From Pseudarthrobacter polychromogenes (GTDB lineage Bacteria; Actinomycetota; Actinomycetes; Actinomycetales; Micrococcaceae), in NCBI RefSeq assembly GCF_014644495.1, contig NZ_BMKU01000009.1, positions 1 to 64,000 of the forward strand: a DNA stretch of 64,000 nucleotides, read 5' to 3'. Each line of letters begins with the position of its first letter. The first letter of the stretch is position 1. Below, in pieces: positions 1-58,907 of this stretch. The position numbers and the translations under genes were made by a program. The notes below the pieces were generated by a model. It saw nothing but the letters and a program-made list of their open reading frames with translations. It had not been told where the DNA came from and did no database searches.

Positions 1-62
1 GACCCACAGCGCCGATGGTACTGCACCCGGGAGGGTGTGGGAGAGTAGGTCACCGCCGGACA
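1..62 (+). rRNA. rrf: 5S ribosomal RNA, 3' end only
   Basis: The first ~62 bases match the 3' half of an actinobacterial 5S rRNA: a GATGGTACTGC segment, then GGGTGTGGGAGAGTAGGTC, then the closing CGCCGGACA strand. The 5' part and the rest of the rrn operon lie left of the window. A hairpin follows within 20 bases, as expected at the end of an rRNA operon. The exact 3' end is estimated. Confidence 0.85.
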
Positions 63-79
63 CACACTAAAAAGGGTCG

Positions 80-106
80 AGGCCCCAACCACCACGGTTG
101 GGGCCT
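80..106 (+). terminator. rrn operon terminator hairpin
   Basis: A perfect 11-bp inverted repeat (AGGCCCCAACC / GGTTGGGGCCT) with a 5-base loop sits just after the 5S rRNA. It lacks a long T run, so rho-independent action is inferred from position and stem strength. Confidence 0.75.
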
Positions 107-124
107 CCCACATTTAACACCCAC

Positions 125-456
125 CCAAACCCTCTCGCACCTAATGCACCCCTTCCCGGCATCCCCTTCCACCTTGTGAAGGCCCCGGGACGGACCCTCT
201 CGCACTTAATGCAGGCACCGGGGCACCCTCTCTCAGTAGATGCCGCTTCCCGGACGATCCTCACCCACTTCCTACCAGCAATACCCCCCACCCCCGCATC
301 AGGTGAGAGAGCATCCCGACAAACCCCACATCAGGTGAGAGAGCGTCCCGGGAAACCGGACATCGAGTGAGAGAGCGTCCCGGGAAACCGGACATCGAGT
401 GAGAGAGCGTCCCGGGAAACCTCACATCGAGTGAGAGAGCGTCCCAGGGGATGAGC
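125..456. repeat. 32-bp-phased repeat array 1 (inverted units, then direct units)
   Basis: This array fills most of the gene-free stretch from 107 to 656. On the right, five head-to-tail units carry the core GTGAGAGAGCGTCC (the first has GCAT for GCGT); the GAGCGT positions start at 309, 341, 373, 405 and 437, exactly 32 bp apart. On the left, more degenerate units lie in the opposite orientation (cores near 129, 194, 225 and 254, with a weak one near 161). There are no variable spacers and no ORF with coding character. The same family recurs at 30151-30330. The function is unknown. Confidence 0.85.
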
Positions 457-656
457 CGGCAAATGAGTCAAAGGACGTCCGCTGGTGGCTGAATCCGGGA
501 CCGAAAACCCCGAAAATGCGGTGATTAACCTCAAAAAGTGCCGGAAACACGCGGAATTTGCGGAACCCGGGGGCCCAAGCTGGTAAGTTTTCGAACAGTG
601 GCTTGTGCGCATGCCGCGTTCAGGCTCCAGAATCATGACCGTCCAGGAGGACATAA

Positions 657-944
657 ATGGCTAAGAACCGTAGTGAACTTGTTGCAGAGGTAGCAGGCAA
701 GGCCGGCACCAGCCAGGCAGCCGTCAACTCCGTCCTCGACGCACTGTTCGAGGTTTTCGAGACTTCTGTCGCCGCGGGCGAGAAGATCACCATCCCGGGA
801 TGGCTCGCCGTCGAGCGCACCGACCGTGCAGCACGTACCGGCCGCAACCCGCAGACCGGCGAGACCATCCAGATCGCGGCAGGCCACAGCGTCAAGCTGA
901 CCGCCGGCTCCAAGCTGAAGGCTGCAGTCTCCAACAAGAAGTAA
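657..944 (+). CDS. HU family DNA-binding protein
   Basis: A 95-residue histone-like nucleoid protein. The N-terminal helix pair (NRSELVAEVAGKAGTSQAAV) and the beta-arm region with the RTGRNPQTGE motif are diagnostic of the HU/IHF family, and 90-95 residues is the usual length of short HU. It lacks the long lysine/alanine-rich tail of mycobacterial HupB. The start is fixed by AGGAGG at 645-650, six bases before the ATG. The gene is monocistronic, with a strong terminator directly after it. The upstream region holds a large 32-bp repeat array rather than another gene. HU would bend and compact DNA as a dimer. Family assignment is certain; which HU paralogue it is cannot be decided here. Confidence 0.95.
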   Translation: MAKNRSELVAEVAGKAGTSQAAVNSVLDALFEVFETSVAAGEKITIPGWLAVERTDRAARTGRNPQTGETIQIAAGHSVKLTAGSKLKAAVSNKK

Positions 945-980
945 GCTTCTTCCTCCCCGGCACGTAGCCGGCGCAGGAAA

Positions 981-1012
981 AGGAGCGGCAACCACACGGT
1001 TGCCGCTCCTTT
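981..1012 (+). terminator. Rho-independent terminator after HU
   Basis: A perfect 13-bp stem (AGGAGCGGCAACC / GGTTGCCGCTCCT) with the loop ACAC is followed by a T-rich tail (TTTTGCTTTTA). It lies 37 bases after the HU stop codon. Confidence 0.9.
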
Positions 1013-1060
1013 TGCTTTTAAGGCCGATTCGCGGGCCGGGCAGGCGTAGCGGACAATGGA

Positions 1061-3235
1061 ATGGTGTCTTCTGCCGCAAAACCACGTTCCACCACCCCCC
1101 AGCCCGTTTCCGTCAAGGGAGCGCGGGGCAACGGTGCGCCGGGTCAAGACAGCAGCGCCCTGGGGATCCCCCGGGGCTGGCAGCTGGCCGGGCTGGCGGC
1201 CCTGTTCCTGGGCCTTGCAGCGGCGTTGGTTTTCTCCGGCGCGGCAGGCGCCCGGGCGGTCTCTGACCCTGGAGCCTTGGTCCGCTGGGGCCTCCCCGTC
1301 AGCAAGGCCATCCATAACGTCTCGTTGGCGACTGTCATCGGCGGCCTGATCTTCGCCGTCGGTATCCTTCCCCGGAGTGCCGGGCCCCGCAGCCGGGCCA
1401 AGGAGGCGTCCGGTGGCGAAGCGCCGGAGCATCCCGCCTTCAGCCGCGCCCTGGCCGTGGCGTCCGCGGCAGGTGCCACGTGGACGCTGTCCGCCATCGC
1501 CGTCCTGGTCCTCACCTACTCTGATGTTGCGGGGCAGGGACTCTCCGGTGACGCGGAGTTCACGCAGGCACTGGTCTTCTTCATGACGGACATCGAGACG
1601 GGGCGGGCCTGGCTGGCCGTCACCATCATCGCGGCAATTGTGACAACGGCGCTGTTCGGGGTGCGATCTCTTGGGGGACTCGCTCTGACGCTGGTCCTGG
1701 CCCTGGTGGGGCTGGTCCCCACCGCGCTGATCGGCCACTCGTCGAGCTCCGCCGACCATGAGGGTGCCATCAATTCCCTGGGCCTGCACCTGGTGGGGGT
1801 CAGCACCTGGGTGGGCGGCATCATCATGCTGGCCCTGCTGTCCGGAATCCTGACCGGCCCCAAAGCAGCAGCCTCCGCCGACATCACGGAACCCACGCTC
1901 CGCCGGTTTTCCTCGCTCGCGGGCTTCGCCTTCGTGCTGGTGCTCGCCTCGGGCATCATTAACGCGAGCATCAGGATCACCAACTGGGCAGACCTCTTTG
2001 GTTCTCCCTACGGCCAGCTGATCCTGGCCAAGTCCGCGGCCACCCTTGTCCTGGGCGGAATCGGGTTCATGCACCGGCAGTGGGTGATCCCGCAGCTGGG
2101 CCGTAAGGGCTCCACAATGTCTTCACGGCGCGTGCTCTGGCAGCTGGTCCTGGCTGAATTCCTGGTGATGGGCGCAACGTCCGGCGTCGCCGTCGCCCTG
2201 GGCCGTTCCGCCCCGCCGGAGCCCACCAGCTTCGCCCCCGATGCCTCGCCCGCTTTTATCCTCACGGGCTACGAGCTTCCCCCTGAACTGACGCCTGAGC
2301 GGTGGCTCACGGAGTGGCGCCTGGACTGGCTCTGGATCGCCGCGGCTCTGTTCGGCCTAGTGGCCTATTTCCTGGGCGTGGCAAAGGTCCACCGGCGCGG
2401 TGACAAGTGGCAGTGGTTCCGTTCGGTGAACTGGGTCATCGGCCTCCTGGTCCTGACCTACATCACGTCCGGCCCGCCGTCGGTCTATGGCCGCATACTG
2501 TTCTCGGCACACATGGTGGACCATATGGCACTGACCATGGTTGCGCCCATCTTCCTGGTCCTGGGTGCGCCGGTGACGCTCGCCCTGCGGGCCCTGCCCG
2601 CCCGGGGCGACGGCTCCAGAGGGGCCCGGGAATGGCTGCTGGTGTTCATCCACTCGAAGTTCTCCCAGCTGGTCACCCACCCGCTCTTTGCGGCAGCCAA
2701 CTTTGCCGGCTCCATTGTGCTGTTCTACTACTCGGACCTGTTCGGCTTCGCCATGCGCGAGCACGTGGGCCACGAGCTGATGATTGTGCATTTCCTGCTC
2801 ACCGGGTACATCTTTGTGCTGACCATGATCGGCACCGACCCGCTGCCGCGCAGGGCGCCGTACCCCATGCGGCTCCTGCTGCTCCTGGCCACCATGGGCT
2901 TCCACGCCTTCTTCGGCGTCGCCATCATGGGCGGGACCAACCTCCTTGCCGCGGACTACTTCGGAAACCTGGGCAGGGAGTGGGGCCCCTCCGCCCTCCT
3001 GGACCAGCAGAAGGGCGGCGCCGTGGCCTGGGGCATCGGCGAGGTCCCCACGCTGCTGGTGGCGCTCGGCGTCGCCATCATGTGGTCCCGGTCTGACCAG
3101 AGGGAGACCAAACGCGTGGACCGGGCGGCGGACAGGAATAACGACGCCGATCTCACCGCTTACAACGATATGTTTGCCAAATTGGCCGAACGCGACGCCA
3201 GGCTGGCTGAACGCAACAAGCTGGAAGGACGCTGA
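1061..3235 (+). CDS. CopD/CtaG fusion: copper-transport and cytochrome c oxidase assembly membrane protein
   Basis: A 724-residue polytopic membrane protein. Residues ~40-330 hold a run of transmembrane helices with the CopD-type segment (SLGLHLVGVSTWVGGI, then FSSLAGFAFVLVLASG). Residues ~400-680 match CtaG of caa3-type oxidases, with histidine-containing helices (LFSAHMVDHMALTMVAPIFL, EHVGHELMIVHFLLTGYIF, LLATMGFHAFFGVAIMGG). In the combined family the CopD part moves copper across the membrane and the CtaG part helps load the oxidase copper centre. The ~40-residue N-terminus before the first helix is cytoplasmic and low-complexity. No good Shine-Dalgarno precedes the ATG at 1061, so the start is uncertain. 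The stop overlaps the next ATG by one base, which implies a two-gene operon. Confidence 0.9.
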   Translation: MVSSAAKPRSTTPQPVSVKGARGNGAPGQDSSALGIPRGWQLAGLAALFLGLAAALVFSGAAGARAVSDPGALVRWGLPVSKAIHNVSLATVIGGLIFAVGILPRSAGPRSRAKEASGGEAPEHPAFSRALAVASAAGATWTLSAIAVLVLTYSDVAGQGLSGDAEFTQALVFFMTDIETGRAWLAVTIIAAIVTTALFGVRSLGGLALTLVLALVGLVPTALIGHSSSSADHEGAINSLGLHLVGVSTWVGGIIMLALLSGILTGPKAAASADITEPTLRRFSSLAGFAFVLVLASGIINASIRITNWADLFGSPYGQLILAKSAATLVLGGIGFMHRQWVIPQLGRKGSTMSSRRVLWQLVLAEFLVMGATSGVAVALGRSAPPEPTSFAPDASPAFILTGYELPPELTPERWLTEWRLDWLWIAAALFGLVAYFLGVAKVHRRGDKWQWFRSVNWVIGLLVLTYITSGPPSVYGRILFSAHMVDHMALTMVAPIFLVLGAPVTLALRALPARGDGSRGAREWLLVFIHSKFSQLVTHPLFAAANFAGSIVLFYYSDLFGFAMREHVGHELMIVHFLLTGYIFVLTMIGTDPLPRRAPYPMRLLLLLATMGFHAFFGVAIMGGTNLLAADYFGNLGREWGPSALLDQQKGGAVAWGIGEVPTLLVALGVAIMWSRSDQRETKRVDRAADRNNDADLTAYNDMFAKLAERDARLAERNKLEGR

Positions 3236-28583: not shown

Positions 28584-28684
28584 AACGCAATCCCGCTTGC
28601 ATACTGTTGGGACCGAGTTACCCCCGTCACAAGCGATTCTTCGCGCGCGCCGTGACGGGGTCGCACCCCAAGCAGGAGTTCCTG

Positions 28685-30148
28685 ATGAGCACTAGAGATA
28701 TGACCCAGTCGATCATGCGGCGCAAGCCCATTGACGACATTGAAGAAGAGAACAAACACAGTGGCCTCTTTAAGTCACTCGGGCTTTGGCAGCTTACGGC
28801 GATCGGCGTAGGCGGCATTATCGGCGTCGGCATCTTTTCCCTCGCGGGACTGGTGGCCGCCGGCAGCGAGAGCACACCCGGCGTGGGGCCCGCGGTGCTG
28901 ATCTCCTTCCTGGTGGCAGGCCTTGCGTCGGCCGCCGCTGCTTTGTCCTACGCGGAATTCGCGGGCATGATTCCCCGCGCAGGGTCCGCCTATACCTACG
29001 GATACGTGGCGCTTGGCGAGATCATCGGCTGGTTCATCGGCTGGGACCTCCTGCTGGAGTACATCGCCATCGTGGCGGTGGTTGCCATCGGCATTTCCGG
29101 CTACTTCGACGCCTTCCTCTCGGGAATCGGCATCAACATGCCCATCTGGATGACGTCCACCGCTGACGAAGGCCGGGGCGGCATCGTCAACATTCCGGCC
29201 ATCGTGGTCTGCCTGATCGTGACCTGGATCCTGTCCCGCGGCACCAAGGCCTTCGGCCGGTTCGAACTCGTGGCCGTTGCCATCAAGGTCATCCTCATCC
29301 TCTTTATCATCGGACTGGGTGTCTTCTACATCGACACCAACAACTACAACCCGTTCATGCCCAGCGGCTTCGGCCCGGTCCTGGCCGGCGCGGCCACGGT
29401 CTTCTTCGCCGTCTTCGGCTACGACGCCATGAGCACCGCGGCGGAAGAGGCCAAGGACGGCAAGAAGCACATGCCCAAGGCCATCATTCTTTCCCTGATT
29501 ATTGCGATGCTGCTCTACGTGGCGGCCACCCTGGTGCTGACCGGCATGCAGAACTACAAGGACATTGACCCCACGGCCGGTTTTGCCTCCGCTTTCACGG
29601 GTGTGGGCCTGCCGGTGATTGCCACCATCATCTCGGTGTTCGCCGTCCTGTCCATCCTGACCGTGATGCTGACCTTCCTCCTGGGCGTTACCCGCGTCTG
29701 GTTCTCCATGAGCCGCGACGGCCTGCTGCCCGGCTGGTTCTCCAAGACGGACCGCCACGGCACCCCGCAGCGCGTCACGTGGATTGCCGGCGTCGCCTCC
29801 GCCCTGCTGGCAGGCGTGTTCCCCATCAAGGCTGTTGCCGACCTGACCAACATCGGCATCCTGGCCGCGTTCGTCGTCGTCTGCTTCTCGGTGATCGTGT
29901 TCCGCTACAAGAAGCCGGATGCGCCCCGGACCTTCCGCCTGCCGTTCATGCCGTTCATCCCGGCCTTCGGTGTCCTGGCGTCGGCATTCCTGATGTTCCA
30001 GCTGCACTGGGAAACCTGGGCGCGGTTCGGCGTCTGGCTCCTTGTTGGCCTGGCGATCTACTTCTTCTACGGAAAGAAGCACTCGCTGATGAACCCCAAC
30101 AGCCCCCGGCATGAGGAGATCGTGGAGATGCACCGCCCCCTCGTCTGA
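28685..30148 (+). CDS. APC amino-acid permease, probably for proline
   Basis: A 487-residue transporter of the CAT/YfnA-like branch with 12 helices. Signature parts are GLWQLTAIGVGGIIGVGIFSLAG, GPAVLISFLVAGLASAAAALSYAEFAGMIPRAGSAYTY and FFAVFGYDAMSTAAEEAKD. The start chosen is ATG 28685 with AGGAG at 28674-28678; an open frame from 28607 covers the promoter and is not used. A shared promoter motif links it to putA, 320 bases downstream, so proline is the best guess for substrate, although family members usually carry basic or broad-range amino acids. A strong terminator built from repeat units separates it from putA. Confidence 0.87.
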   Translation: MSTRDMTQSIMRRKPIDDIEEENKHSGLFKSLGLWQLTAIGVGGIIGVGIFSLAGLVAAGSESTPGVGPAVLISFLVAGLASAAAALSYAEFAGMIPRAGSAYTYGYVALGEIIGWFIGWDLLLEYIAIVAVVAIGISGYFDAFLSGIGINMPIWMTSTADEGRGGIVNIPAIVVCLIVTWILSRGTKAFGRFELVAVAIKVILILFIIGLGVFYIDTNNYNPFMPSGFGPVLAGAATVFFAVFGYDAMSTAAEEAKDGKKHMPKAIILSLIIAMLLYVAATLVLTGMQNYKDIDPTAGFASAFTGVGLPVIATIISVFAVLSILTVMLTFLLGVTRVWFSMSRDGLLPGWFSKTDRHGTPQRVTWIAGVASALLAGVFPIKAVADLTNIGILAAFVVVCFSVIVFRYKKPDAPRTFRLPFMPFIPAFGVLASAFLMFQLHWETWARFGVWLLVGLAIYFFYGKKHSLMNPNSPRHEEIVEMHRPLV

Positions 30149-30150
30149 CT

Positions 30151-30330
30151 CCCGGACGCTCTATCACCTAACGTCGCTTTACCCCGGACGCTCTATCACC
30201 TAACGTCGCTTTACCCCCGGACGCTCTATCACCTTCCTGTGGAGGGTGATAGAGCGTTTCCGTTTTTCCCGCATCAAGTGGGAGAGCGTCCGGGAATTTG
30301 CGGCGTTAAGTGAGAGAGCGTCGGGTGGGG
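30151..30330. repeat. 32-bp-phased repeat array 2 (three inverted units, then three direct units)
   Basis: Inverted units have ACGCTC at 30156, 30188 and 30221 (spacing 32 and 33), with the shared stretch GGACGCTCTATCACCTAACG. Direct units have GAGCGT at 30252, 30284 and 30316 (spacing 32 and 32), for example ATCAAGTGGGAGAGCGTCCG. The two sets meet head to head at the loop 30238-30240. The core matches array 1 at 125-456. No coding frame crosses it. Confidence 0.88.
30221..30264 (+). terminator. Terminator formed by the innermost inverted pair of repeat array 2
   Basis: The 17-bp stem (ACGCTCTATCACCTTCC against GGAGGGTGATAGAGCGT, one G-T pair) closes a TGT loop and is followed by TTCCGTTTTT. 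It lies 73 bases after the permease stop codon and should end that transcript. Confidence 0.88.
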
Positions 30331-30470: not shown

Positions 30471-33400
30471 ATGACCCACATTGCAATGGAACCGGCAGTC
30501 GCCACCGGAACTGCGCCCCGGACTGTCGATGTCGACGTGCCCCAGGCCAAGGCATTGGCCAACGAAGCGGTGGCACTGGTCCGCCATTGGCTGACCGAGG
30601 CATCCAAGGTTCCCGTGGACGCTTCTGCCCAGCAGCTCGCCGGCGTCCTGAAGGACCCCAACGGCCTGGAGTTCACCGTTGGCTTCGTGGACGGCGTGGT
30701 CCGCCCCGAGGACCTGAACGTCGCCGCACGAAACCTCGCCGCTCTGGCCCCCAAAGTCCCGGCCTTCCTGCCCTGGTACATGCGGAGCGCCGTGGCACTT
30801 GGCGGAACCATGGCCCCGGTCCTGCCGCAGGTTGTCATCCCGGTCGCGCGAAAGGTCCTGCGCGAGATGGTGGGCCACCTGATCGTTGACGCCACCGACG
30901 CCAAGCTGGGACCTGCCATTGCCAAGATCCGCAAGGACGGCATCAAGCTGAACGTCAACCTCCTGGGTGAAGCCGTCCTGGGCGAGCACGAGGCCTCCCG
31001 CCGGCTCGAGGGCACGCACACGCTGCTGGCACGTCCCGACGTCGACTACGTCTCCATCAAGGTCTCCTCCACGGTGGCCCCGCACTCGCCATGGGCCTTC
31101 GACGAAGCCGTTGAGCACGTCGTCGAGAAGCTCACCCCGCTGTTCGAGCGGGCAGCGTCATTTCCCAAGGCCAAGTTCATCAACCTGGACATGGAGGAGT
31201 ACAAGGACCTGGACATGACCATCGCGGTCTTCACCAGGATCCTGGACAAGCCCCAGTTCAAGAACCTTGAAGCCGGCATCGTGCTTCAGGCCTACCTTCC
31301 GGACGCACTCTCCGCCATGATCCGCCTGCAGGACTGGGCCGCTGAGCGCCGCGCCAACGGCGGCGCCGCCATCAAGGTCCGCGTGGTGAAGGGCGCCAAC
31401 CTGCCCATGGAGCAGGTGGAAGCCTCCCTCCACGACTGGCCGCTGGCAACGTGGGGAACCAAGCAGGACTCGGACACCAGCTACAAGAGCGTCATCAACT
31501 ACTCCCTGCACCCGGAGCGGATCAAGAACATCCGGATTGGCGTGGCCGGCCACAACCTGTTCGACATCGCCTTCGCCTGGCTCCTTGCCAAGCAGCGCGG
31601 CATTGCGGATACCGCACCGCAGAGTATCGAGTTTGAGATGCTGCTCGGCATGGCGCAGGGACAGGCCGAGGCCGTCAAGAAGGACGTCGGCTCGCTCCTG
31701 CTCTACACGCCGGTGGTGCACCCGGCCGAGTTCGACGTCGCCATCGCCTACCTGATCCGACGCCTCGAAGAGGGCGCCAGCCAGGACAACTTCATGTCCG
31801 CCGTGTTTGAACTCAGCGAGAACGAATCGCTGTTCGAGCGCGAAAAGCAGCGTTTCCTGTCCTCCCTCGACGCGCTGGACAACAGTGTCCCGCCGGCCAA
31901 CCGCCAGCAGGACCGCAACCTCCCGCCGCAGCCCCTGCCGCACGACTCGTTCAAGGACACCCCGGACACCGACCCGTCGTTGCCGGCCAACCGCGACTGG
32001 GGCCGCGCCATCCTGGAGCGCGTCCCGTCCTCCACGCTCGGCAGCGCTGCCGTGGAAGCCGCGTTCATCAACGACGAAGCAAAGCTGAACGACGCCATCA
32101 CTACCGCCGTCGAAAAGGGCAAGGCCTGGGGCGCGCTCTCAGGCGCCGAACGTGCCGAGATCCTGCACCGCGCCGGCGACGTCCTCGAAGCCCGCCGCGC
32201 CGACCTGCTCGAGGTCATGGCCAGCGAGACCGGCAAGACCATCGATCAGGGCGACCCGGAGGTCAGCGAAGCTGTGGACTTCGCCCACTACTACGCCGAG
32301 TCCGCACGGAAGCTGGACAAGGTCGACGGCGCCACGTTCGTCCCAGCGAAGCTCACCGTAGTCACGCCGCCGTGGAACTTCCCGGTCGCCATTCCGGCCG
32401 GGTCCACCCTCGCCGCGCTCGCCGCCGGCTCCGCCGTCGTCATCAAGCCTGCCAGGCAGGCCGCCCGCAGCGGCGCCGTGATGGTCGAAGCACTGTGGGA
32501 GGCCGGCGTTCCCAGGGATGTGCTCACCATGGTGCAGCTCGGTGAAAGGGAGCTGGGCAAGCAGCTCATCAGCCACCCGGCTGTCGACCGGGTGATCCTC
32601 ACCGGCGGCTACGAGACTGCCGAGCTGTTCCGGTCCTTCCGCCAGGACCTGCCGCTGCTGGCCGAGACCAGCGGCAAGAACGCCATCATCGTCACCCCCA
32701 GCGCGGACTTGGACCTGGCAGCCAAGGACGTGGCCTACTCCGCGTTCGGCCACGCCGGCCAGAAGTGCTCGGCCGCCTCACTGGTGATCCTGGTGGGCTC
32801 CGTGGCCAAGTCCAGGCGCTTCCACAACCAGCTGATCGACGCCGTCACCTCCCTGAAGGTGGGCTACCCGGAGGACCCCACCAGCCAGATGGGGCCGATC
32901 ATCGAGCCCGCCAGCGGCAAGCTCCTCAACGCCCTTACCACCCTGGGCGACGGGGAAAACTGGGCCGTTGAGCCGAAGAAGCTGGACGGCACCGGCCGGC
33001 TCTGGAGCCCGGGCGTGCGCTATGGCGTCAAACGCGGCTCCTACTTCCACCTCACCGAATTCTTCGGGCCCGTCCTGGGCGTGATGACCGCCGACACCCT
33101 GGAAGAGGCCATCGATCTCCAGAACCAGATCGAGTACGGCCTCACCGCCGGGCTGCACTCCCTGAACTCCGAGGAACTGGGCGTCTGGCTGGACAGTATC
33201 CAGGCCGGAAACCTCTACGTGAACCGCGGCATCACGGGTGCCATTGTGCAGCGGCAGCCGTTCGGCGGCTGGAAGAAGTCAGCCGTCGGTGCAGGAACCA
33301 AGGCCGGCGGACCCAACTACCTGGCAGGCCTGGGCGACTGGGCCCCTGCCACAAGCACCGCGGAGGCCGGCATCACCCACGCGGGCGTGCGCCGCATCCT

Positions 33401-33977
33401 CAACGCGGCCGGCTCCGCCCTGGAACCCGCTGAGCTCGAGTCCGTCCAGCGTGCGCTCGCCTCCGACGCGCAGGCCTGGGCAGACGAGTTCGGTACCGCG
33501 AAGGACGTCTCGGGACTCAGCGCGGAACGCAACATCTTCCGCTACCGCAGCCTTCCCGTGACGGTGCGCCTGTCCGAGGGTGCGCCGCTGGCGCACCTGG
33601 TCCGGACCGTGGCGGCCGGCGTGCTTGCGGGTTCGGAGCTGACCGTCTCCACCGCCGTCGAGCTTCCCGCCCAGCTGCGCCCGGTGCTGATTGCCCTGGA
33701 CATCGAGGTGACGGTGGAGTCCGACACCGACTGGCTGGTTTCGGCAGGCAGGCTCGCGGCGGTGGGCAAGCTGTCCAATGGCCGCGTGCGCCTGATCGGC
33801 GGCACCGCCGCGGCCCTGGCAAAGGCCGCCGGGGGACGCCCCGACCTGGCAATCTACGCGCACCCGGTGACCGAAGCGGGCCGCGTTGAGCTGCTGCCCT
33901 TCCTGCACGAACAGGCCGTCAGCATCACCGCCCACCGCTTCGGCACCCCCAACCACCTCTCGGATGCCCTGATCTAG
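30471..33977 (+). CDS. putA: Bifunctional proline dehydrogenase / glutamate-semialdehyde dehydrogenase
   Basis: An 1168-residue PutA-type enzyme that converts proline to glutamate. Residues ~80-430 are the FAD-dependent proline dehydrogenase barrel (LEGTHTLLARPDVDYVSIKV, FINLDMEEYKDLDMT, RVVKGANLPMEQVEAS). Residues ~510-980 are the NAD-dependent aldehyde dehydrogenase: TPPWNFPVAIPAGSTLAALA, the active-site LAETSGKNAII Glu, and the nucleophile Cys in FGHAGQKCSAASLVI. The C-terminal ~180 residues form the extra domain of long PutAs. No N-terminal ribbon-helix-helix is present, so it does not repress its own gene; the LysR at 27615-28529 is the likely regulator. The operator dyad lies just upstream, and a bidirectional terminator follows. 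Confidence 0.95.
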   Translation: MTHIAMEPAVATGTAPRTVDVDVPQAKALANEAVALVRHWLTEASKVPVDASAQQLAGVLKDPNGLEFTVGFVDGVVRPEDLNVAARNLAALAPKVPAFLPWYMRSAVALGGTMAPVLPQVVIPVARKVLREMVGHLIVDATDAKLGPAIAKIRKDGIKLNVNLLGEAVLGEHEASRRLEGTHTLLARPDVDYVSIKVSSTVAPHSPWAFDEAVEHVVEKLTPLFERAASFPKAKFINLDMEEYKDLDMTIAVFTRILDKPQFKNLEAGIVLQAYLPDALSAMIRLQDWAAERRANGGAAIKVRVVKGANLPMEQVEASLHDWPLATWGTKQDSDTSYKSVINYSLHPERIKNIRIGVAGHNLFDIAFAWLLAKQRGIADTAPQSIEFEMLLGMAQGQAEAVKKDVGSLLLYTPVVHPAEFDVAIAYLIRRLEEGASQDNFMSAVFELSENESLFEREKQRFLSSLDALDNSVPPANRQQDRNLPPQPLPHDSFKDTPDTDPSLPANRDWGRAILERVPSSTLGSAAVEAAFINDEAKLNDAITTAVEKGKAWGALSGAERAEILHRAGDVLEARRADLLEVMASETGKTIDQGDPEVSEAVDFAHYYAESARKLDKVDGATFVPAKLTVVTPPWNFPVAIPAGSTLAALAAGSAVVIKPARQAARSGAVMVEALWEAGVPRDVLTMVQLGERELGKQLISHPAVDRVILTGGYETAELFRSFRQDLPLLAETSGKNAIIVTPSADLDLAAKDVAYSAFGHAGQKCSAASLVILVGSVAKSRRFHNQLIDAVTSLKVGYPEDPTSQMGPIIEPASGKLLNALTTLGDGENWAVEPKKLDGTGRLWSPGVRYGVKRGSYFHLTEFFGPVLGVMTADTLEEAIDLQNQIEYGLTAGLHSLNSEELGVWLDSIQAGNLYVNRGITGAIVQRQPFGGWKKSAVGAGTKAGGPNYLAGLGDWAPATSTAEAGITHAGVRRILNAAGSALEPAELESVQRALASDAQAWADEFGTAKDVSGLSAERNIFRYRSLPVTVRLSEGAPLAHLVRTVAAGVLAGSELTVSTAVELPAQLRPVLIALDIEVTVESDTDWLVSAGRLAAVGKLSNGRVRLIGGTAAALAKAAGGRPDLAIYAHPVTEAGRVELLPFLHEQAVSITAHRFGTPNHLSDALI

Positions 33978-58654: not shown

Positions 58655-58733
58655 GGCCCACAATCTACCCCTCCCTGCGGTAAACTGGACCACGCCCAAC
58701 AGGGCGGATATTTCACCAAACAGAATCATTCAA

Positions 58734-58854
58734 CGACAGGGGAGCGCCGCCGTCGGCATCACTGGCCATGCCAGGGACCGCAGGTGGGCGCTGAGAGTGC
58801 GGACAGCCGCAGACCCTCGAACCTGATCCGGTTAGTACCGGCGCAAGGGAGTCG
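58734..58854 (+). ncRNA. TPP riboswitch (THI element)
   Basis: The conserved core reads GGGGAGC (58739-58745), GCTGAGAGTGCGG (58790-58802), then ACCCTCGAACCTGATCCGG, TTAGTACCGGCG and CAAGGGAGTC. The closing P1 stem pairs CGAC (58734-58737) with GTCG (58851-58854). Ligand is thiamine pyrophosphate. It controls ykoEDC just downstream. The promoter is not clear; a TAAACT -10 candidate lies at 58681. Confidence 0.93.
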
Positions 58855-58907
58855 AGTTCTCGAAGTGCGCGCAGCGGCAGCAGTGCCGGTAGCCGCGTCC
58901 ACTTTCC

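Follow-up and report, generated by a model that had tools for sequence, protein, structure and literature searches.

Mirrored 32-bp-phased repeat arrays dispersed behind genes in Pseudarthrobacter polychromogenes and related Arthrobacter-group bacteria

Several kinds of repeated or hairpin-forming DNA elements are described that can be set beside the arrays reported here. REPs form hairpins and are placed at gene 3' ends. The DNA uptake sequences of Neisseriaceae and Pasteurellaceae have a conserved core of ~12 bp, differ in version between related species, and occur as inverted pairs behind genes; a genome holds roughly a thousand of them or more, and they are not known to form 32-bp arrays. 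In eukaryotes, TTF-I Sal-box arrays and other protein roadblocks consist of repeated sites of ~18 bp behind rRNA genes and stop polymerases. Iterons and plasmid centromere arrays are direct repeats spaced by whole helical turns that are cooperatively bound, each at one site of a replicon beside the gene for the binder. CRISPR arrays are built of identical direct repeats with unique spacers between them, and an intrinsic terminator is a G+C-rich stem followed immediately by a T run. BIMEs are intergenic, dispersed, and grouped in regularly spaced clusters, and their units are described as alternating in orientation and protein binding and transcription termination as shown or suggested for them (PMC2817692).

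The window analyzed here is a stretch of 64,000 nucleotides at the start of P. polychromogenes contig NZ_BMKU01000009.1. It opens on the 3' end of a 5S rRNA gene (positions 1 to 61, + strand; Rfam RF00001, 29.2 bits, E 0.00097, below the gathering score, its 5' part being cut by the window start). A perfect 12-bp inverted repeat 3' of this gene (79 to 107; repeat finder), terminator-like on the - strand, is probably the terminator of the rRNA operon, for which we infer a role on the + strand. A gene for an HU-type DNA-binding protein lies at 657 to 944 (+ strand; Pfam PF00216, E 2.3e-25). A sequence-only reading had placed a 32-bp-phased array between the rRNA and this nucleoid-protein gene, at 125 to 456, and that position was confirmed. 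The right arm (292 to 445, + strand) holds five direct 32-bp units with core starts at 303, 335, 367, 399, and 431, found by Tandem Repeats Finder (TRF; period 32, 4.8 copies, 91% matches), by the repeat finder, and by a position-weight matrix trained on copies from the P. polychromogenes genome. The five direct GAGCGT units of the earlier reading do follow one another at exact 32-bp steps, but the hexamer is exact only at 341, 373, 405, and 437 and reads GAGCAT at 309. The opposite units that it had seen on the left are also present, as mirrored, diverged units (128 to 268, - strand), although the weight matrix finds three clear ones and one degenerate one rather than four or five. Their cores start at 128 (28.3 bits), 193 (29.1 bits), 224 (19.5 bits), and, weakly, 256 (6.9 bits), and no unit was reported near 160 at a threshold of 5 bits.

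The window contains another array (30151 to 30325), with a build like that of the first. It begins directly after the stop codon of an amino acid permease gene (28607 to 30148, + strand; Pfam PF13520, 2.7e-53). Its left arm (30151 to 30232, - strand; TRF and weight matrix) has three mirrored units with core starts at 30155, 30187, and 30220, and its right arm (30246 to 30322, + strand; weight matrix) has units at 30246, 30278, and 30310. The mirrored cores at the center are 26 bp apart and form a dyad hairpin (30216 to 30262, also an inverted-repeat match), with an RNA fold of -33.6 kcal/mol and z -7.0 for positions 30214 to 30266. The gene downstream, a neighbor only, encodes a bifunctional proline dehydrogenase/aldehyde dehydrogenase (30471 to 33977, + strand; Pfam PF01619 and PF00171). 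The window also carries an ordinary TPP riboswitch (58728 to 58867; Rfam RF00059, 59.6 bits). The idea of a special tie to rRNA and HU was not supported: a 5S tail motif was found beside three of the searched stretches (the window, L043, and L053), the neighbors annotated at other arrays are ordinary genes, and among these annotated neighbors HU was seen at the window array only. The HU gene looks like an incidental neighbor.

Copies are numerous in this genome and widespread in its relatives. With at most one mismatch, GTGAGAGAGCGTCC matched 79 places in the P. polychromogenes genome and the reversed pattern none, and 80 loci from other genomes contained 386 weight-matrix sites compared with 3 in the reversed sequence; these contrasts exclude chance. 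A total of 39 arrays of at least two units each, with 156 units, were identified in the genome by weight matrix, a count that covers the window and 32 stretches around GTGAGAGAGCGTCC-like places and that arrays of purely diverged units escape. Pairs of units phased at 32 bp were present in 106 of 198 sampled genomes of the genus, at 0 to 111 pairs per genome, with reversed controls at 0. The phased two-unit pattern matched at least 114 stretches in named public genomes, and among the 80 matches listed all were from Arthrobacter, Pseudarthrobacter, Paenarthrobacter, or a Micrococcaceae bin. An exact 13-mer was found in 35 of 99 genomes (this one and relatives), one of the 35 being outside the genus, with one match; the reversed 13-mer gave one match in each of two genomes of the 99. 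The phased pattern had no match in viral contigs, and no similar DNA was found among plasmid or phage records. The array family is essentially confined to one genus. A recent duplication restricted to two loci, which the sequence-only reading had named as an outcome that would undo its proposal, is ruled out, as is a plasmid or phage element, by the 79 places, the 106 of 198 genomes, and the lack of viral or plasmid matches. A literature search of limited reach (core sequence; Arthrobacter repeats) brought up, in the portions of text that it returned, no description recognized as that of the 32-bp array repeat, and the passage on Arthrobacter livingstonensis in PMC12306157 gives numbers only.

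The unit comprises a 12-bp core, GTGAGAGAGCGT, and a 6-bp stretch before the core. For same-strand neighbors within 400 bp, the spacing was exactly 32 bp in 90 of 97 cases in P. polychromogenes and in 220 of 238 cases in the 80 other loci, so that copies elsewhere share the phasing first seen in the window. Seventeen of the 25 other steps were of 31 or 33 bp. Linker sequence drifts while the 32-bp step is kept. As the earlier reading had stated, there are no spacers of the CRISPR type: the 32-bp step includes the unit, and adjacent linkers are alike. Where orientation switched within 400 bp, it did so as '- then +' rather than '+ then -' by 47 to 1 in other genomes and by 22 to 0 in P. polychromogenes. 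The usual build is "<- <- (hairpin) -> ->": the units of an arm share one direction, and the two arms are mirrored about a single dyad. Units of one orientation only were present at 33 of the 67 distinct loci, roughly half. The distance between mirrored cores at the dyad was 26 bp in 36 distinct sequences, 27 in 2, 15-18 in 11, and 36-38 in 8, with 6 elsewhere between 15 and 38. The 25 distances outside 26-27 were phased at 10.5 bp (p 0.006), and their phase matched that of the 26 class (p 0.016). A core and a spacing that stay conserved while linkers drift, together with dyad distances of 15-18, 26-27, and 36-38, fit the proposal that equivalent bases face one side of the helix. The mirrored arrangement, the covarying central hairpin, and the genome-specific variants described below are additions to what the sequence-only reading had noted.

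With this build, the arrays resemble the known systems only in part. They are like the BIMEs and REPs of Enterobacteria, Pseudomonas, and Xanthomonas in being dispersed, intergenic, and present in many copies (39 arrays and 156 units here). BIME units alternate (PMC2817692), whereas the present arrays are direct within arms and have one inversion. The REP or BIME unit is itself a palindromic hairpin; the present core and its flanks are asymmetric, and the strong hairpin arises at the dyad between mirrored units. The REP-associated Y1 transposase (PF01797) was detected in 2 of 198 genomes of the genus, in one of them over the cut-off, and not in the P. polychromogenes genome; a control search with PF01797 gave matches in 5 of 14 well-known genomes. 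Three REP/BIME features (alternating orientation, palindromic unit, and RAYT transposase) thus fail, and the arrays are not filed as REPs. The DNA uptake sequences share a core of ~12 bp, species variants, and inverted pairs, but the present repeat amounts to the 156 units of 39 arrays. As with TTF-I Sal boxes, the sites are repeated; here three arrays of the genome were seen behind rRNA genes, the arms are mirrored, and the binder is putative. Iterons and centromere arrays have the same whole-turn spacing, whereas the present arrays are dispersed over the chromosome, with no common neighbor gene in the clusters examined. Like CRISPR arrays, they contain regular direct repeats, but the step equals the unit, unique spacers are lacking, the arms are mirrored, and dozens of loci are involved.

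Sequence comparison between loci and genomes indicates which parts of the unit are conserved. Between orthologous arrays, 5.5% of positions differed in the core (positions 0-11), compared with 25.5% in the six positions before it and 26.7% in the linker; the 150 comparisons include many with shared members and are not independent, and the contrast between core and linker is somewhat inflated, the units having been picked by a core-centered matrix. Divergence was also below the linker mean at the C at -6, the A at -2, the G at 14, and the A/T stretch at 18-20. The six base pairs before the core behaved differently from the linkers: their agreement averaged 0.79 between loci of one genome and 0.40 between genomes, compared with 0.42 and 0.38 for the linkers, which are slightly more alike within a genome (six genomes, 65 units; none of 500 label shuffles reached the within-genome value for either part). 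Within-genome agreement of the pre-core stretch was 0.83-0.92 in five of 10 genomes (G114, G216, G058, G115, and G219) and weak or absent in G105 (0.65), G200 (0.48), G159 (0.56), G212 (0.67), and G195 (0.72). One variant is common to G058 and G115 and another to G114 and G219, and these may be non-independent. Pre-core stretches that are alike while the linkers are nearly unrelated between loci argue for selection on the site, since copying of whole units would have made the linkers alike too. Such a pattern is more in keeping with binding sites of a sequence-specific factor than with DNA that was copied. All-A and all-T stretches both occur in the linker, also with TpA steps, so that stiff A-tracts are not established there.

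Placement was analyzed for 156 arrays (from the P. polychromogenes genome, the named genomes, and the G058 stretches) grouped into 67 distinct loci, with genes called by a simple hexamer score, so that single boundaries may be off. Array edges toward a gene 3' end had a median distance of 19 nt to the stop codon, 43 of 82 of them being within 20 nt; for edges toward a gene 5' end the distance was 134 nt, with 4 of 52 within 20 nt. The neighboring genes were convergent at 25, tandem at 32, and divergent at 10 of the 67 loci, compared with 123, 354, and 175 of 652 background gene pairs from the same loci, a background that includes the gaps with arrays. Where a half array lay between tandem genes, it pointed at the upstream gene at 11 of 16 distinct loci and the opposite way at 5, which is not significant. 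A polar roadblock read from half-array orientation, at 18 to 6 with orthologues counted and 11 to 5 without, is therefore not claimed.

Among the matches listed, arrays occupy orthologous positions, the gcvT-gcvH gap and the region 3' of ackA being two examples, and their unit number varies. A one-armed array of 2-6 units stands just ahead of gcvH in many species (gcvT-gcvH, L177-L206), and the gap from its last unit to the start codon is short and varies rather little. Other repeats were found in these regions. Another dispersed palindrome behind genes, which carries variants of TGCTCCGTAA....C.TTTT on one arm or on both, was seen in the ackA 3' region of G010, G013, G015, G019, G021, and G058 (loci in L207-L233); in G058 it matched 19 times, at about 14 places. 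Between genes there is also a third repeat, GGTTGAGCnTGTCGAAA or a sequence close to it, in gcvT-gcvH of G005 and G028 (among L177-L206) and in the ackA 3' region of G042 (L224). At a few loci, half arrays frame a gene. Outward-pointing half arrays frame a DUF559-type nuclease-like gene in L038 (1521-2842), where they are 1.1 kb apart, and a MerR regulator and a DUF2306 gene in L036 (1569-3010); the framed spans of the two loci are 1.1-1.3 kb. In L052, an alpha/beta hydrolase gene lies between half arrays.

The architecture, spacing, place, core conservation, hairpin, and patchy distribution of the arrays, all seen in the sequence, lead us to propose that they are clusters of binding sites for a putative sequence-specific DNA-binding protein and that they may mark or close transcription units at their 3' ends, a proposal to which we give about an even chance. 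Protein binding, cooperative binding on one face, and boundary action of the bound array are what we infer from these features. A candidate factor of the Arthrobacter group would bind double-stranded DNA at each site, probably cooperatively, and sites every 32 bp (about three helical turns) would place the bound molecules on one helix face. The 6-bp stretch before the core would be set as a genome-wide variant in part of the genomes. The bound array could then work as a boundary between transcription units, whether as a transcription end, an insulator, or a chromosome-organizing site. A protein-bound boundary at operon ends is our best guess.

The strongest competing explanation gives the hairpin a role in RNA. 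The arrays would then be RNA elements at transcript ends, with the hairpin acting as a transcription terminator or 3'-end stabilizer and the tandem units arising as by-products of slippage. Five central-dyad sequences from four arrays folded at -21.5 to -33.6 kcal/mol, with z -4.8 to -8.2, the entire window array had an RNA fold z of -5.6, and the strong placement at gene 3' ends suits such elements as well. Covariation points the same way: at core position 4, a G/T polymorphism, the two sides of the dyad agreed in 0.83 of 58 dyads compared with 0.59 after shuffling. Among the nine positions tested, correlation across the dyad was found at -4, -3, 4, 12, 13, and 14 and not at 15 or 19, position 9 being invariant. 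Either pairing or template-switch correction of near-palindromes seems to maintain the hairpin. Because it needs single-stranded DNA or RNA, the covarying dyad counts against double-strand binding as the whole account. For second-rank units across the dyad, positions 13, -3, and -4 were correlated and positions 4, 12, 14, 15, and 19 were not; pairing of whole arms as one long hairpin was rejected on the basis of this correlation at only three of nine tested positions. Moreover, the 33 one-oriented loci of the 67 are without a mirrored pair that could be found, and RNA structure needs no 32-bp step in such half arrays. The present stems are strong. The consensus lacks the immediate T run of the T-run type of terminator: positions 13-16, next after the stem, are rich in G and C, and A outnumbers T in the A/T stretch at 18-21. 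A terminator-pattern scan of window positions 1-1100 gave no match inside the array. On balance, we regard RNA elements as a possible but rather unlikely explanation of the arrays.

The arrays might instead be a selfish, REP- or MITE-like dispersed repeat, spread by a transposase, grown in tandem by recombination, and without host function. Their dispersed, intergenic occurrence, their near one-genus range, and the swing from 0 to 111 phased pairs per genome are in keeping with this, as are the variable unit number of orthologous arrays and the likeness of adjacent tandem units at all nine tested positions, which is what local duplication would produce. Against it stand the linkers, nearly unrelated between loci while the sites are alike, and the absence of any viral, plasmid, or phage match. 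Transposition of the RAYT/REP kind was rejected as a driver, the Y1 transposase being present in just the 2 of 198 genomes. No target-site duplication was recognized at empty gcvT-gcvH and ackA sites among the matches listed, where the flanks are mostly ~75-90% identical and too diverged to define junctions. Carriage of a gene between half arrays as a mobile unit was likewise rejected, the contents of L038, L036, and L052 being ordinary and different in the three annotated cases. No array-linked gene was found among the 25 largest protein clusters around arrays, which are orthologous neighborhoods or common paralogous families. We consider a selfish origin doubtful.

A further alternative is that the arrays are chromosome-positioning sites, like nucleoid occlusion sites or other terminus-excluded sites, which could be a special case of the binding-site proposal. 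Few array loci fall in the chromosome quarter opposite dnaA: 2 of 40 in G058, 2 of 32 in G040, and 1 of 19 in G016 (binomial p 0.001, 0.007, and 0.03); for the half opposite dnaA, the counts were 12 of 40, 11 of 32, and 5 of 19. The G058 loci derive from 100 of 121 matches, the other 21 lying beyond 3.98 Mb or on a second contig, and chromosome length was approximated at 4.3 Mb for G040 and 5.2 Mb for G016, with dnaA at or near the contig start. For comparison, the different palindromic repeat of G058 was present in this quarter at 3 of about 14 places, and the GGTTGAGCnTGTCGAAA repeat, with 3 matches in G058 and 0 in both G040 and G016, has too few copies to serve as a control for terminus depletion. 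Conserved genes tend toward origin-proximal positions, and the scarcity of arrays opposite the origin may mirror only where conserved genes lie. The three genomes likely share arrays by descent and so are not three tests. We regard chromosome positioning as an improbable role of the arrays.

The distribution among species bears on the proposed binding factor. In a tree of ackA from 28 genomes, a single gene with several open forks, the array-free G001, G003, G006, G009, G017, G029, and G035 form a well supported clade of seven species, nested in a group that is otherwise array-rich except for G007. Array-free was defined first by the exact 13-mer; the seven species and G007 are also at zero for phased pairs. 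The same tree has a second group with very few arrays (G010, G014, G018, G019, and G024), of which G018, zero by 13-mer, nevertheless has three units at gcvH and one phased pair. A search for relics compared 400 kb each of G001 and G058: weight-matrix sites numbered 0 and 56, and exact 11-mer pairs at lag 32 numbered 9 and 213, respectively; the G058 stretches were chosen partly for known arrays and the G001 stretch irrespective of content. The 400 kb of G001 contained no 32-bp TRF array (there was one of period 31 and one of period 33), and the absence of such an array and of sites ruled out for G001, over this stretch, that a different 32-bp array has taken the place of the family. Loss of the arrays in the seven-species clade is the simplest reading, as if a required candidate factor had been lost. 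A fuller version of the binding-site proposal would have a genus-specific putative factor mark operon ends, more on the origin side than on the terminus side, through cooperative mirrored arrays; its pre-core recognition would shift between species, old orthologous arrays would be re-tuned, and loss of the factor would entail loss of all arrays. In this complete form, the proposal is tentative and rather unlikely.

Intergenic repeat families in bacteria are often ascribed to transposition. In these arrays, what recurs appears to be a site at fixed intervals rather than a copied sequence. The presence of arrays in roughly half of the genomes sampled from the genus, and their absence from nested relatives, amounts to a natural experiment for the putative factor and for the role that it may have at transcript ends.
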